Below, piece by piece: positions 5,921 to 11,699 of a stretch of DNA of 56,845 bases. Source of the stretch: Lachnospiraceae bacterium (GTDB lineage Bacteria; Bacillota; Clostridia; Lachnospirales; Lachnospiraceae); contig JAEELW010000166.1 in NCBI GenBank assembly GCA_016282915.1, positions 1 through 56,845 of the forward strand. Reading direction: 5' to 3'. The notes beneath the pieces are model-generated. The model made no database searches. It saw only the letters and a program-made list of their open reading frames with translations, and was not told the DNA's origin. Position 1 is the first letter of the stretch; each line of letters starts with the position of its first letter. A program made the translations under genes and the position numbers.

Positions 5921-5992
5921 GGTGACTACCGGGAATCGAACCCGGATCATCAGATCCACAATCTGAGGTACTCGCCGTTGTACGATAGCCAC
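5921..5992 (-). tRNA. tRNA-His(GUG) with C73 but no encoded G-1
   Basis: The cloverleaf is complete. The acceptor GTGGCTA pairs with TAGTCAC (one G-U). The D stem is GTAC/GTAC, the anticodon stem TCAGA/TCTGA with loop TTGTGGA (anticodon GTG), and the T stem CCGGG/CCCGG with loop TTCGATT. The discriminator (5921) is C, as in bacterial tRNA-His, but the base at position -1 (5993) is T, not the G that bacteria normally encode and that histidyl-tRNA synthetase reads. CCA is not encoded. The 5' end lies only two bases after the discriminator of the preceding tRNA-Glu. A Thg1-like gene 160 bases upstream could add G-1 opposite C73. Confidence 0.9.
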
Positions 5993-5994
5993 AG

Positions 5995-6120
5995 TGACCC
6001 CTGTGAGACTTGAACTCGACATTTGCAGCTTGAGAGGCTGCACGGTGTCCGGGGGACACCGGCTTTGCACCGACCGAAGCGGAGCGTAGAACGCCGTCCT
6101 GGCCATTAGACGAAGGGGCC
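5995..6120 (-). tRNA. tRNA-Glu(CUC) interrupted by a ~53-nt insert
   Basis: The 5' part (acceptor GGCCCCT, D arm GTCT-AATGGCCA-GGAC; 6096-6120) and the 3' part (anticodon arm GCAGC-CTCTCAA-GCTGC at 6025-6041, T arm, acceptor AGGGGTC, A73) are those of a tRNA-Glu. Between D arm and anticodon arm, where one base is normal, there are 54 bases (6042-6095). They contain a perfect 8-bp hairpin CGGTGTCC/GGACACCG. The T stem GTGAG/CTCAC also carries one bulged C (6018). Position 26 is not a known bacterial tRNA intron site, so this is either an unusual interrupted tRNA or a tRNA gene broken by a small palindromic insertion. Confidence 0.75.
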
Positions 6121-6122
6121 GT

Positions 6123-6145
6123 ATGCGGAGCCGAAGCCTCCGCAT
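6123..6145 (-). other. Hairpin between Thg1-like gene and tRNA-Glu
   Basis: ATGCGGAG (6123-6130) and CTCCGCAT (6138-6145) form a perfect 8-bp stem with a 7-base loop. It lies directly before the 5' end of tRNA-Glu and after the Thg1-like stop codon. It has no U tract, so it is more likely a processing or stability element than a terminator. Confidence 0.6.
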
Positions 6146-6153
6146 TATCTTTA

Positions 6154-6912
6154 TTACATTTTCAGCAGATTCGCTATGAACTCCGAATATTTCTCACGGA
6201 TCGGTATTTCCTCATCCACCTTCAAAGCCCGCCGTTCTGCGATTTCCGTCTTGCTGGTAACCGGATTGAAGCCCTGTTTCTCATAAGTCTCCCAATAGAC
6301 TCCTATACCCCTCTTCTGCCAGCTCGGAAGCTTATCAAAATTGATCCCATTCTGGAAAAGCAGTTCATTCTTAAAGGCTACCGTCTGACCTTCCAGCATC
6401 TTTGTCGCCTCTCCGACACGCTTTCCCTGCTTACGAAGCATCCAGTAACAGTGCGAATTCAGTGAATTTCTGTGCGCATCCTCCTGCCTCCACTGGAAAT
6501 AATCCTGTACCCTCTCCACAGTAGGCAGCGGCACCATACGACAGTCAAATATACCCGCTTGCCCTGATTGCATTGAAAAGGTGGTACTCGCCACACCTGC
6601 CAGAAGGGAATTATACTTCCTTACCTTGCGTCCGAAGGTATCCTCATTCGGGTGAAAGAGCAATGATATCTCATCGCTCTCGGTATATCCGTAGATCACA
6701 CGAAAACCGTAATTCATAAGTGCCTTAACAGTTTCGACCATCATATCCCGAAACCGGATATCAAACGGCGCTTCAAATTTGCAGACTTCTTTCGTCAGTC
6801 TGGTAAACCTGTTTCCGTCCAACCGTGCCACCATATACAGCTCGGGTAACAGCACCTGATCCAGAGACTCCTCATAAACACGCATCTTGCTGTCCAGTTC
6901 ATCAAAGTTCAT
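6154..6912 (-). CDS. Thg1-like protein (tRNA-His guanylyltransferase family)
   Basis: This encodes about 252 residues of the Thg1 family, whose members add nucleotides in the 3'-to-5' direction to tRNA 5' ends. Visible motifs are the metal-binding RLDGNRF (Asp32) and YGYTESDEISLLF (Asp80), the FDCR segment, and YFQWRQEDAHRNSLN (138-152), equivalent to the family's WRQxDxHxNNLY motif. Eukaryotic enzymes add G-1 to tRNA-His; bacterial Thg1-like proteins prefer repair of 5'-truncated tRNAs by Watson-Crick templating. The start at 6912 has GGAGG 7 bases upstream; longer starts are too close to it. The gene overlaps the kinase gene by 11 bases and is followed by tRNA-Glu and tRNA-His. Bacterial members are rare, so transfer is likely. 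Confidence 0.93.
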   Translation of the reverse strand: MNFDELDSKMRVYEESLDQVLLPELYMVARLDGNRFTRLTKEVCKFEAPFDIRFRDMMVETVKALMNYGFRVIYGYTESDEISLLFHPNEDTFGRKVRKYNSLLAGVASTTFSMQSGQAGIFDCRMVPLPTVERVQDYFQWRQEDAHRNSLNSHCYWMLRKQGKRVGEATKMLEGQTVAFKNELLFQNGINFDKLPSWQKRGIGVYWETYEKQGFNPVTSKTEIAERRALKVDEEIPIREKYSEFIANLLKM

Positions 6913-7372
6913 CTTCATCCCTCCATTCGCATATTTCCATATTACCGTCTTCATTTTTCACAAAATACAGCTCATCAAATCCTTCTTCATAAGACGGCAT
7001 CTCCAGTTTCTTCGATGTCATAGCGATAGCACCGTCCGGAACCCGTTCTTTTCCGGTCCGCTGAGCATTTCTTTGTATGCATTCCCGGATCCGTGACTGC
7101 ATAAAGTATCCGATCACAAGATATCCGGCCTCTTTTGCTTTCGGTATATACCTTGCCCTGTCTTCACGGGTCGGATTGGTATTATCCACAGCATAATCAC
7201 AGCCCTTTTCCATACAGTCCGCGATCAGAAGCACTTCCTTATTACGAGTGTGCAAGATATCCAGATTGACCCTCACCGCATCCGTCAGGAACCTTGAACA
7301 AAAGGTTGATTTTCCGCTCCCCTGGATTCCCATCATGACGAACATCTTTTTCTGTTCTTTTCCCATTGACAT
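6902..7372 (-). CDS. P-loop polynucleotide kinase-like protein (AAA_33 type)
   Basis: This encodes 156 residues. The Walker A motif is GIQGSGKST (15-23). The later DNTNPTREDRARYIPKAKEAGY segment with its basic lid matches the T4 polynucleotide 5'-kinase/AAA_33 group, which phosphorylates 5'-OH ends of nucleic acids. There is no phosphatase domain, so it should be a kinase only. Other small-molecule kinases share this fold, so the substrate is inferred. It starts 11 bases after the regulator gene and overlaps the Thg1-like gene, so the three are translated from one message. A 5'-phosphate is what Thg1 enzymes activate, which makes the pairing sensible chemically. Confidence 0.82.
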   Translation of the reverse strand: MSMGKEQKKMFVMMGIQGSGKSTFCSRFLTDAVRVNLDILHTRNKEVLLIADCMEKGCDYAVDNTNPTREDRARYIPKAKEAGYLVIGYFMQSRIRECIQRNAQRTGKERVPDGAIAMTSKKLEMPSYEEGFDELYFVKNEDGNMEICEWRDEDEL

Positions 7373-7383
7373 TCACCGCTCTC

Positions 7384-7656
7384 TTATGCAATCCTTTCTC
7401 CAATATCCGTTTTATCTATCACGATGATATCGTCAATCGCCACACCAAATACCACAGATAATACGACCAGGTTATCAATTGTAGGCATAGCTACGCCCTG
7501 TTGCCACTTATAGATCGCCTGCGGTGTAGAAAATCCAAAGATCATCTGAAGATCCTTTACGGACATCCCCGCCGCTTTTCTTAAGCGCACGATCATCTGA
7601 CCGGTACTGATCATGTCGATGGTAGGTATGTTTCTTTTCATCATAATCTCTTTCAT
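7384..7656 (-). CDS. Xre-family HTH regulator
   Basis: This encodes 90 residues. A Cro/C1-type helix-turn-helix occupies about residues 18-70: IVRLRKAAGMSVKDLQMIFGF, then STPQAIYKWQQGVAMPTIDNLVVLSVVFGV. The start at 7656 has an AAGGAAG ribosome site; the longer in-frame extension upstream lacks one and is low in coding character. It is the first gene of the island and is transcribed with the kinase and Thg1-like genes, so it is probably their autoregulator. The hairpin at 7697-7715 in its leader is a candidate operator or RNA element. Confidence 0.85.
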   Translation of the reverse strand: MKEIMMKRNIPTIDMISTGQMIVRLRKAAGMSVKDLQMIFGFSTPQAIYKWQQGVAMPTIDNLVVLSVVFGVAIDDIIVIDKTDIGERIA

Positions 7657-7786
7657 AGTCTTTTCTTCCTTTCCCAAGTGCATCAGCCAGGGCGCTGGAC
7701 GTCCGGAGGACATCCGTTTGACGCCAACCGGAGAGGAGACATGAACCTGCACTTCCCTTCTGGGGCTGGTATTACGCCACTGATAC
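7657..7786 (-). promoter_or_regulatory. Leader of the RNA-repair operon with shared hairpin
   Basis: The stretch between the terminator and the regulator gene holds GGACGTCC-GGA-GGACATCC (7697-7715). It shares GTCCGG(A/G)GGACA with the hairpin inserted in tRNA-Glu (6043-6061). I could not place a convincing promoter here, although the strong terminator just upstream implies one. Confidence 0.4.
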
Positions 7787-8084: not shown

Positions 8085-8489
8085 CTAATTCCTTTTTTTC
8101 TGTTTTAAATACTCATATACTTCCGTCAATGCACATTTGAATGATGTCTTTGTGACCTTTAACCCTCCCGATTTCCTTCTGGCATCCGCTACAAACGGCA
8201 TTCCCTCTGTCTGTTTAAGTTTCAACAAGTAACTTGAATAACAATCCTTGTCCATTGTATTATGCGGTATTGATCCAAATATCACCGCACGATATTTGCC
8301 ATCTCTTCTGATTCGTGCTGTATAATTTTTTGCCTTCTCATAATCAATGAATTCTATATCCTGCTTTTCAAAGCCCATGCTTTTTGCTATCCCGCACATC
8401 ACGTTCGTCCCAAGTTCATGTCCTCCAATGACAAGTATCTTTCCATGAATACCAAGAAGGATATGACCACTCGCATTGAGATCGGTCAA
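8085..8489 (-). pseudogene. 5'-truncated protein of unknown family
   Basis: The frame reads as a Rossmann-like alpha/beta protein: KILVIGGHELGTNVMCGIAKSMGF, then VIFGSIPHNTMD and a C-terminal helix CALTEVYEYL. This resembles DUF2325-type small proteins, with low certainty. The opening residues (TDLNASGH) come from sequence that abuts the oppositely oriented integrase remnant. There is no ATG or ribosome site, so the true start is lost. The junction between the two truncated genes lies near 8450-8490 and marks a deletion or recombination event. Confidence 0.5.
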
Positions 8490-8787
8490 CGGGGATAAGC
8501 ACTATGTATTCCAGACCGACGGAGATTTTCCGCTTAACCCGAACCGTCTGAACGATCATTTGCGGAAGCACTGCGCAGCGCTCGGGATCCGTTACTTTTC
8601 CAGCCATAAATTCCGCTTCTATTGGATCAGCAGCGCCTACTGCCAGGAAATGAACGAAAGGATCATCCAGAAGGTCGCCGGTCATGCCTCACTGGAAATG
8701 ACCCGGCACTATAACCGCTCGACGAGGCTGCAGGAAGATTTTTCGCTGGATGAAATGGACCGGATCTGCGGATTCAAAAAGGCCTGA
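8476..8787 (+). pseudogene. Tyrosine recombinase (integrase), C-terminal remnant
   Basis: About 100 residues of the catalytic end survive. HKFR supplies the family's HxxR box, VAGHASLEMTRHY supplies the GH box and the catalytic tyrosine. The N-terminal arm and core domains and the first catalytic arginine are gone, so it cannot be active. It points toward the 3' end of the tRNA-Pro gene about 100 bases away, the usual place for a tRNA-targeting integrase. It is direct evidence that the island to its left arrived on, or was rearranged with, a mobile element. Confidence 0.85.
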
Positions 8788-8881: not shown

Positions 8882-8892
8882 CTTTAAGCCAA

Positions 8893-8967
8893 TCGAGGTG
8901 ACTGGATTCGAACCAGCGGCCCCCGCGTCCCTAACACGGTGCTCTAGCCAAACTGAGCCACACCTCG
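8893..8967 (-). tRNA. tRNA-Pro(AGG)
   Basis: Acceptor CGAGGTG/CACCTCG, D stem GCTC/GAGC, anticodon stem CCGTG/CGCGG with loop TTAGGGA (anticodon AGG), T stem GCTGG/CCAGT with loop TTCGAAT, A73. CCA is not encoded. It is co-transcribed with tRNA-Thr. Its T-arm sequence recurs, with one change, at 4892-4905, so it may be the integration target of the neighbouring element. Confidence 0.93.
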
Positions 8968-9001
8968 AAATTACTATTATACGGCTCATCGCCGTATGCA
9001 G

Positions 9002-10445: not shown

Positions 10446-11699
10446 TCAGCGGAAATACTCTTTGATCTCCGTATATCCCTGTGCCGCCAGCTGCTCCTTC
10501 TGGAACTTCTTATTCTTGGCCATACGCAGGAGCTGTACGCATTTTCCTTCCGCACGCAGCTCTTCGGCACGGCTCATTGCTTCGTTCACCTTCTCTGCCG
10601 GCAGTCCTTTTTCCAGCAGAAACGCCGTTTTCTCCTTTTCATCGGGCAATTGATAGCCCTGCTCCATCAGGATCGTGATGATGCGCTCAAAACCGATGGA
10701 AAAACCGCAGGCCGGCGTCTGCTGCCCCGTAAAGCGGCCGATCATCTCGTCGTAACGTCCGCCGCCGCCGCAGGAAGAATGGAACTCCTTCAGCTCCACT
10801 TCAAAGATCGTACCGGTATAATAGCTCATGCCGCGCACCAGCGTCGGATCGAAGAGCAGCGTCCAGCCGTCCTTCTTTGCGGCGTTCACTGCGGAAAAGA
10901 TCTCTTCCAGATTGCTGCGCCCCTCTGCGGACAGCGCCTCACCCATGCGCTCACTGAGCGCCTTTAATGCCTCTTCGCCCGCTTTTCCCTCAAGCAGCCG
11001 GAAAAGCTCCATATACTTTGAGGCGTTCTCCTTCGGATAGCCCGCCTTTTCCAGTTCTTCGATCACACCCTCCGCGCCGATCTTGTCCATCTTGTCCAGG
11101 ATGATGAATACGGCATCGTAATCCGCCTCGGCAAAGCCCGCCCAGGCCGCCATCGACTTGAGGATCCTACGGTCGTTGATGCGTATATTGAAATTCTTAA
11201 AGGAAAGCCGGGTCAGAACGGTGCTCATGGCCAGGATCAGCTCGATCTCGGCCAGATTGGACGGCTCTCCGAGGATATCGATATCGCACTGCTCAAACTG
11301 CCGGAAGCGCCCCTTCTGCGGCTGGTCCGCACGGAATACATTCCCCATCTGAAGCGCCTTGAAAGGCTGCGGCAGCTCTGCGGCATGATCCGCATAATAA
11401 CGACACAGCGGCACCGTCAGGTCATAACGCAGTCCCGAATCCGCAAGGTCGTTCTCTTCCTTTGCGTTCGCGATATCCAGCTTATTCCCTCTTTTCAGTA
11501 TCTTAAAAATCAGTTTTTCGTTCTCGCCGCCCTGTTTGCTCGAAAGATTCTCGATATGCTCCACACAGGGGGTCTCGATCTGCGTAAAGCCATAGCTTTC
11601 GTAGATCTCCCTTATCACATCGCTGACATGGTTGCGCAGCCGCATCTCTTCCGGCGTCACATCCCGCATGCCTTTTACGGCTTTTTTGATCATCGCCAT
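10446..11699 (-). CDS. hisS: Histidyl-tRNA synthetase
   Basis: This encodes 417 residues of class II histidyl-tRNA synthetase, charging tRNA-His in the cytoplasm. The motifs are GMRDVTPEE at the N-terminus, the motif-2 loop FRADQPQKGRFRQFEQCDIDI, and the His-specific RGMSYYTGTIFE with the GGGGRYDEMI and ACGFSIGFER segments. The motif-2 wording differs from the RYERPQKGRYRQF form of the common bacterial type. The C-terminal anticodon-binding domain is short, ending GYTEIKEYFR without the usual final strand region. Both suggest a divergent subgroup, which I infer rather than know. It has its own promoter and leads the Sfp-type gene. Its tRNA partner with the odd 5' end lies 4.5 kb away. Confidence 0.95.
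   Translation of the reverse strand: MAMIKKAVKGMRDVTPEEMRLRNHVSDVIREIYESYGFTQIETPCVEHIENLSSKQGGENEKLIFKILKRGNKLDIANAKEENDLADSGLRYDLTVPLCRYYADHAAELPQPFKALQMGNVFRADQPQKGRFRQFEQCDIDILGEPSNLAEIELILAMSTVLTRLSFKNFNIRINDRRILKSMAAWAGFAEADYDAVFIILDKMDKIGAEGVIEELEKAGYPKENASKYMELFRLLEGKAGEEALKALSERMGEALSAEGRSNLEEIFSAVNAAKKDGWTLLFDPTLVRGMSYYTGTIFEVELKEFHSSCGGGGRYDEMIGRFTGQQTPACGFSIGFERIITILMEQGYQLPDEKEKTAFLLEKGLPAEKVNEAMSRAEELRAEGKCVQLLRMAKNKKFQKEQLAAQGYTEIKEYFR

Follow-up and report, generated by a model that had tools for sequence, protein, structure and literature searches.

A bacterial gene neighbourhood that joins a Thg1 family protein with a polynucleotide kinase was reported in 2010 by Anantharaman et al. 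In that report (PMC2904730), the pairing was proposed to serve RNA repair, and only a subset of the operons has an RNA ligase nearby. Bacterial Thg1-like proteins (TLPs) are able in vitro to place a G opposite C73 (PMC6471195) and also repair 5'-truncated tRNAs, which they prefer over the addition of G at position -1 (G-1) of tRNA-His (PMC6471195, PMC3701042), while their cellular role is described as an open question (PMC6471195). Here, we analysed a 56,845-nt contig of a Lachnospiraceae bacterium, JAEELW010000166.1 (the whole stretch is called the window below), originating from a genome of 3.85 Mb in 181 contigs with 98% completeness. The already published kinase-Thg1 pairing is found in it within a minus-strand group which, read leftward, comprises a gene for a small XRE-type helix-turn-helix (HTH) protein, a kinase-like gene, a Thg1 family gene, a hairpin, a split tRNA-Glu gene and, after 2 bases, a tRNA-His gene that has T instead of G at -1. 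We consider it rather likely that this locus is one version of an accessory cassette combining tRNA repair with spare tRNAs. The features are as follows.

5921-5992, minus strand: tRNA-His (GTG), accessory copy, called by ARAGORN and, at 58.3 bits, by the tRNA model of Rfam
5993, minus strand: position -1 of this tRNA-His, T and not G
5995-6120, minus strand: tRNA-Glu (CTC) gene with an insert, read from the sequence; 5' part 6093-6120, 3' part 5995-6039
6040-6092, minus strand: hairpin insert of 53 nt within tRNA-Glu, resembling repetitive extragenic palindromes (REP-like)
6123-6145, minus strand: hairpin ending 2 nt ahead of tRNA-Glu
6154-6912, minus strand: TLP of 252 aa (PF04446, PF14413)
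6902-7372, minus strand: P-loop kinase resembling polynucleotide kinases; its gene overlaps that of Thg1 (PF13671, TIGR01663, PDB PNKP)
7384-7656, minus strand: XRE/Cro-type HTH gene (HTH_3 at 3.2e-7 on a longer frame)
7691-7736, minus strand: second REP-like hairpin, read by eye; it lies upstream of the HTH gene within what may be the remains of a tRNA, not called by any program
8476-8787, plus strand: tyrosine recombinase fragment of 103 aa (PF00589 at 2.2e-11; NF040815 at 2.4e-8, below cut-off)

The HTH protein gave a match at 1e-8 in 83 of 200 genomes of the family, this genome included; the relatives are 45-76% identical, and the gene at 7384-7656 belongs to this XRE family. We compared 30 HTH contexts outside this genome, namely the 29 strongest by HTH score and L157 (genome G264), which was entered via its tRNA-His (G, C and L numbers are our labels for genomes, contigs and loci). 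RtcB was located within 300 bp of the HTH gene in 17 contexts, tRNAs within 600 bp in 15 and either of the two in 26; leaving L157 aside, the figures were 17, 14 and 25 of 29, respectively. As a control, positions were drawn at random on the same stretches at distances above 3 kb from the HTH gene; of 3410 such draws, 23 had a tRNA 600 bp away or less. The usual order was tRNA-Lys, RtcB, HTH, tRNA-Glu(TTC), tRNA-Glu(CTC) and sometimes tRNA-His, tRNA-Tyr and tRNA-Ser(GCT), with the tRNAs a few bases apart. The names RtcB and RlaP were confirmed with Pfam for the members tested (five RtcB and three RlaP), the latter (PF10127) being a family named for RNA repair (PMC7824862). Thus, a majority of the sister contexts compared have RtcB as the enzyme beside the regulator, and our locus has the kinase-Thg1 pair; several HTH contexts are without RtcB.

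The assignment of the neighbouring protein to the Thg1 family, made in an initial annotation from the letters of the sequence, stands: PF04446 was matched at 4e-31 (108.1 bits against a curated cut-off of 29.2) and PF14413 (Thg1C) at 8.7e-18 (65.1 bits against 26.3), and this is the sole PF04446 match of the genome. Residues D32, D80 and E81 are presumably the metal-binding palm carboxylates of the catalytic type. The best PDB match was 5axk (2.8e-32), with which the DG and SDE motifs align; the protein belongs to the same family as the solved TLPs (5axk, 4kgk) and is divergent from them in sequence. The overlapping kinase gene matched PF13671 at 4.4e-13, the PNK-3'Pase family TIGR01663 at 1.4e-15, which is below its curated cut-off, and the kinase domain of PDB PNKP at 1.3e-9.

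Among the 27 loci with close Thg1 relatives (51-95% identity) found in genome_contigs, 23 have a kinase homologue no more than 600 bp from Thg1, and one of the other four, L073, is a contig-end fragment. The record titles of these loci name Lachnospiraceae, Oscillospiraceae, Clostridia/Clostridiales, Solobacterium, Roseivirga, Bacteroidetes, Sphingobacterium, Geobacteraceae/Geobacter, Anaerolineales, Gammaproteobacteria, Hahella, Nostoc, Calothrix and Planctomycetota. RtcB was present in the fetched stretch of six of the 27; a Pfam check was made on two of these, L063 and the L066 locus (the latter via L281). When 397 genomes of the family were drawn, PF04446 was matched in 10 of them, this genome being one of the 10, and in eight the match was above cut-off. 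Distant Thg1 relatives, all below 60% identity, were seen in 20 plasmid and 121 phage records. An origin of the tRNA pair from a phage or plasmid was considered and rejected: a 30-nt stretch of the tRNA-His had no exact match in viral_contigs, a close Thg1 relative was absent from the same set, and the distant phage and plasmid DNA matches covered at most 39% of the query.

Several loci carry the two gene groups together. On contig C79 of genome G400 (the genome of L052), the order starts with a kinase, Thg1 (84%), tRNA-Leu, tRNA-Met, RtcB, tRNA-Ile, RlaP and HTH (67%), followed by tRNA-Glu, tRNA-Met, tRNA-His (A at -1, C73), a tRNA with an interruption in the D-loop, and tRNA-Tyr; this tRNA-His lies 11 kb from Thg1. 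On contig C36 of G407, a kinase and Thg1 are followed, 13 kb further on, by an HTH gene with tRNA-Glu, tRNA-Arg and tRNA-Gln. A gammaproteobacterial locus (L066/L281) contains RtcB, five tRNAs (Cys, Lys, Gly, Asn and His), a kinase and Thg1.

As for the tRNA-His of the window, the cloverleaf with C73 and T at -1 seen in the initial annotation was borne out by both calls: the acceptor stem has 7 of 7 pairs (one G-T), the T-stem 5 of 5, the first pair is G1-C72, and CCA is not encoded. Its position directly downstream of Thg1 holds for direction only, the hairpin and the tRNA-Glu(CTC)-like gene lying in between; the leftward unit of tRNA, enzyme and tRNA-Glu likewise holds for the common strand, and the kinase-like and HTH genes, which had gone unmentioned, should be added to it. 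The whole-genome search for another tRNA-His that the same annotation had proposed returned one gene, on contig C158, with G at -1 and C73. The single HisRS (histidyl-tRNA synthetase) found in the genome is encoded in the window at 10446-11699, 4.5 kb from the tRNA-His, with TIGR00442 above cut-off; eukaryotic HisRS are among its better PDB matches. We also considered this enzyme as a dedicated partner of the tRNA-His without G-1 and discarded the idea, since it is the only HisRS and the other PF13393 match of the genome is HisZ beside hisG (TIGR00443 and TIGR00070 above cut-off); it must therefore serve the tRNA-His with G-1 too. Because the second tRNA-His encodes G-1 and there is one HisRS, histidine identity does not rely on Thg1. 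It follows the canonical rule in this genome, where the gene that lacks G-1 is an additional tRNA-His copy. The claim of an identity built after transcription is therefore not supported, nor is a eukaryote-like arrangement in which all tRNA-His genes of the cell are without G-1.

The initial annotation had further suggested a self-sufficient pair of tRNA and maturase, in which RNase P would leave a G1 start, the TLP would add G-1 opposite C73 and charging by HisRS would follow, the spare tRNA-His thus working only when the enzyme is made. The shared unit and strand, the C73 template and the in vitro addition of G opposite C73 mentioned above agree with this idea, and so does the tRNA-His with A at -1 on the second Thg1 island, that of G400. 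However, when the loci of 36 Thg1 relatives (L040-L075, 2.7 to 10.8 kb each) were scanned, any tRNA was found in three and tRNA-His in one, L066, where it encodes G-1 and lies some 2 kb upstream. Around the nearest two relatives (95% and 92%), stretches of 19.0 and 15.7 kb were free of tRNAs.

To place the T at -1 in a wider frame, 41 tRNA-His rows were compared at positions -1 and 73, each gene once, with repeat copies from overlapping loci dropped. In the nine genes from arrays or Thg1 islands, G-1 was missing in four (-1/73: window T/C, G128 T/A, G051 T/C and G400 A/C; completeness of G128 is 69% and of G051 96%) and present in five (G408 G/A; G013, G264, G194 and the gammaproteobacterial locus G/C), the G194 gene adjoining a more distant HTH relative (46%). 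None of the 29 other bacterial tRNA-His genes lacked G-1 (Fisher p = 0.0017). A departure from G-1:C73 was seen in five of nine against none of 29 (Fisher p = 0.00025), all 29 being G/C, one of them with anticodon ATG. Two decayed array tRNA-His genes with T at -1 (L099, L106), both from genomes without a Thg1 match, were left out of the survey.

Absence of G-1 was not linked to Thg1: it was seen in two of five genes with Thg1 in the genome and in two of four without it (p = 1), and with phages added in four of eight and two of four, respectively. The Thg1-bearing phages contributed three tRNA-His genes: phage G is G/C, and Bacillus phages CM1 (L242) and BM15 (L245) are C/A. The latter two agree with a tRNA-maturase pair in having C at -1, though these tRNAs, read as His(GTG), have C1-G72 and A73. 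Against such a pair stand the genes lacking G-1 in genomes without a Thg1 match (G051 with C73, G128 with A73) and the Thg1-bearing G194, G408, gammaproteobacterial locus and phage G, which encode G-1. Taken together with the tRNA-free surroundings of the nearest relatives, these data make a dedicated pair quite unlikely. A related idea, which we regard as improbable, is a conditional identity switch: the spare tRNA-His would be made without G-1 and stay unchargeable until the co-made TLP adds it. The replacement tRNA-His would then be active only while the repair operon is on, and the G400 island, with its A-1 tRNA-His, would provide another example.

It was also considered that the host HisRS may accept a tRNA-His lacking G-1, so that the spare copy would be used as it stands. 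Relaxed recognition of this kind is known from some alphaproteobacteria and eukaryotes (PMC6471195, PMC9976931), tRNA-His without G-1 is indeed carried by genomes that have no Thg1 match, and the eukaryotic PDB matches of the HisRS point in the same direction. Nevertheless, all 29 non-array bacterial genes encode G-1 and C73, and hence there is no general loss of the G-1 rule; this explanation appears very improbable to us.

Some further observations on tRNA-His genes should be added. A73 occurs in the array genes of L159 (G128, T at -1) and L276 (G408, G at -1). The genome of L062 has, in L247 (972-1045), a gene resembling tRNA-His whose anticodon is ATG, beside one with GTG. Pattern matches with one mismatch were tried as a source of array tRNA-His genes and rejected as mostly chance, ARAGORN calling tRNA-His in three of 30 such loci and the reversed-pattern control also giving matches; among seven genomes with matches at zero mismatches, G109 had no tRNA in the fetched stretch and G002 only a truncated gene.

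The tRNA-Glu(CTC) was called by neither ARAGORN nor Rfam because the 53-nt insert splits the gene immediately ahead of the anticodon arm. The 3' part of the gene is matched over 49 nt (95.9%) by an intact, near-identical tRNA-Glu(CTC) on the human gut record MT839421 (L092). MT839421 is an unverified record labelled phage, which carries RtcB and HTH besides the tRNA-Glu and may be bacterial in origin. The 18-nt core of the insert, CTCCGCTTCGGTCGGTGC, was found at 16 places of the genome with up to two mismatches, nine of them exact, with no match for the reversed control; in viral_contigs it occurred at four places, none inside a called tRNA. Related inserts in array tRNAs lie at the anticodon arm or loop and at the T-arm. 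A tRNA intron was considered and rejected, the core being dispersed at 16 places and found in both orientations, with the tRNA in the window and against it in L092, which likewise disfavours removal at the RNA level. To judge from these patterns, the insert is more likely a repeat-like mobile element.

More generally, array tRNA genes are broken up at varying positions by REP-like hairpin elements some 45-60 nt long, and the flanking tRNA halves look well kept; such sites were seen in the window (6040-6092 and 7691-7736), L092 (about 2240-2310), L105 (tRNA-Glu and tRNA-Ser) and L110 (about 700-770). In L222 (1579-1771, contig C79 of G400), a tRNA that is probably tRNA-Phe by its halves is interrupted in the D-loop by more than 100 nt holding two strong hairpins; the contig of this array also has RtcB and Thg1. 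In the window itself, a tRNA-Pro with anticodon AGG (8892-8968) adjoins tRNA-Thr(GGT).

The copy may be partly decayed, because the tRNA-Glu is split and the recombinase fragment, by its sequence apparently a trace of a mobile element, lies nearby. At the extreme, the cassette would have arrived with a mobile element and be a decaying relic, T at -1 and the split tRNA-Glu being damage and the tRNA-His unused; truncated or decayed tRNA-His genes in sister arrays (L099, L106) agree with it. On the other hand, all stems of the tRNA-His are intact, the reading frames of kinase, Thg1 and HTH are open and match their families, and the array of G051, which is intact, has a tRNA-His with T at -1 as well. 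We regard a relic as possible, though unlikely.

A further point in common with the sister arrays is the hairpin ahead of the tRNAs. We inspected 19 gaps between HTH and tRNA, and 11 of them have a hairpin whose end lies 2-6 nt ahead of the first tRNA called (these counts come without a shuffled control). In the others, L169 has a weaker hairpin ending at the tRNA, L276 has one at 8 nt and L163 has none, and five (L092, L162, L164, L165 and L170) have no hairpin that near, several of these gaps holding an interrupted tRNA or another insert. The hairpin at 6123-6145 resembles that of the sister arrays and likewise precedes tightly packed tRNAs, with Glu and His 2 nt apart; the locus departs from them in that the tRNA-Glu is interrupted and the kinase and Thg1 lie between HTH and hairpin. 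This hairpin, which follows Thg1 instead of HTH, provides the strongest indication that the kinase and Thg1 genes are part of an HTH-tRNA unit of this type.

The tRNA-Glu genes near HTH have A38 in 16 of 18 cases, and the two other tRNA-Glu genes of this genome have C38. This resembles the anticodon-loop changes by which phage tRNAs escape nucleases (PMC10264068); the comparison is a weak one, as its bacterial control is small.

Several points weigh against the reading of the locus as a repair cassette with spare tRNAs. Four of the 30 HTH contexts have neither RtcB nor a tRNA. RtcB, which neighbours HTH in 17 of them, was not found by tblastn in the window, to which this search was confined within the genome, and no RNA ligase is thus seen near the kinase-Thg1 pair, RtcB being the one ligase family searched for. 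Away from HTH, ten tRNA-Glu genes (phage genes included) had A38 in six cases, C in three and G in one. The survey rows are not all independent, the tRNA-His genes of G013 and G264 being near-identical and some genomes giving two rows. Finally, the tRNA-Glu is split and probably dead, and the cassette copy may therefore be a relic.

The gene content, its order and recurrence and the -1 counts are what the sequences show; by analogy with the stress-induced tRNA array of Anabaena and the RtcB operon of Salmonella, both treated below, we propose a cassette that would answer tRNA damage with repair enzymes and spare tRNAs under one small regulator. The XRE-type protein probably controls one transcript carrying the RNA end-repair enzymes and the spare tRNAs, which would be switched on when host tRNAs are cut, e.g., by toxins or anti-phage nucleases. 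The kinase would restore 5' phosphates on the cut tRNAs, the TLP would rebuild lost 5' nucleotides, and the spare tRNAs would replace those lost; here we infer co-transcription, control by HTH, induction by damage and every enzyme activity. The missing G-1 would then reflect a loose constraint at -1 in spare tRNA-His genes. The TLP is probably a general 5'-end repair enzyme, which may also complete this tRNA-His by adding G-1 and would not be needed for the other tRNA-His of the cell.

If so, the kinase, the RtcB-linked regulator and the spare tRNAs would tie bacterial TLPs to tRNA damage, in a system compact enough for repair, replacement and control to be testable together. Moreover, all four bases are represented at -1 among these tRNA-His genes, from genomes with and without Thg1, and the set offers a natural test of the need for G-1 in bacteria.

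Among known systems, the kinase-Thg1 neighbourhood of 2010 is the same pairing; the portions of that paper used here (PMC2904730) make no mention of an XRE HTH gene, of tRNA arrays or of tRNA-His lacking G-1. In the literature searched, whose coverage excludes Burroughs and Aravind 2016, no description of an XRE-RtcB-tRNA array cassette was recognised. The silent trn operon of Anabaena is likewise a spare tRNA array, induced by translational stress and kept under the repressor TrcR, which also represses rtcB; there, in contrast, the repressor is a ribbon-helix-helix protein with scattered targets, and Thg1 is unmentioned in the excerpt (PMC10272220), whereas here HTH lies beside the enzymes and tRNAs. 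The rsr-yrlBA-rtcBA operon of Salmonella is an RNA repair operon too, and cut tRNAs switch on this RtcB operon; it differs in having the activator RtcR and RtcA, again with Thg1 unmentioned in the excerpt (PMC7790460). Jumbo phages are described as countering tRNA cleavage with a combination of tRNAs, RtcB, RlaP, kinases and Thg1 (PMC7824862); that combination belongs to phage genomes, whereas the one presented here forms compact cassettes on bacterial contigs.
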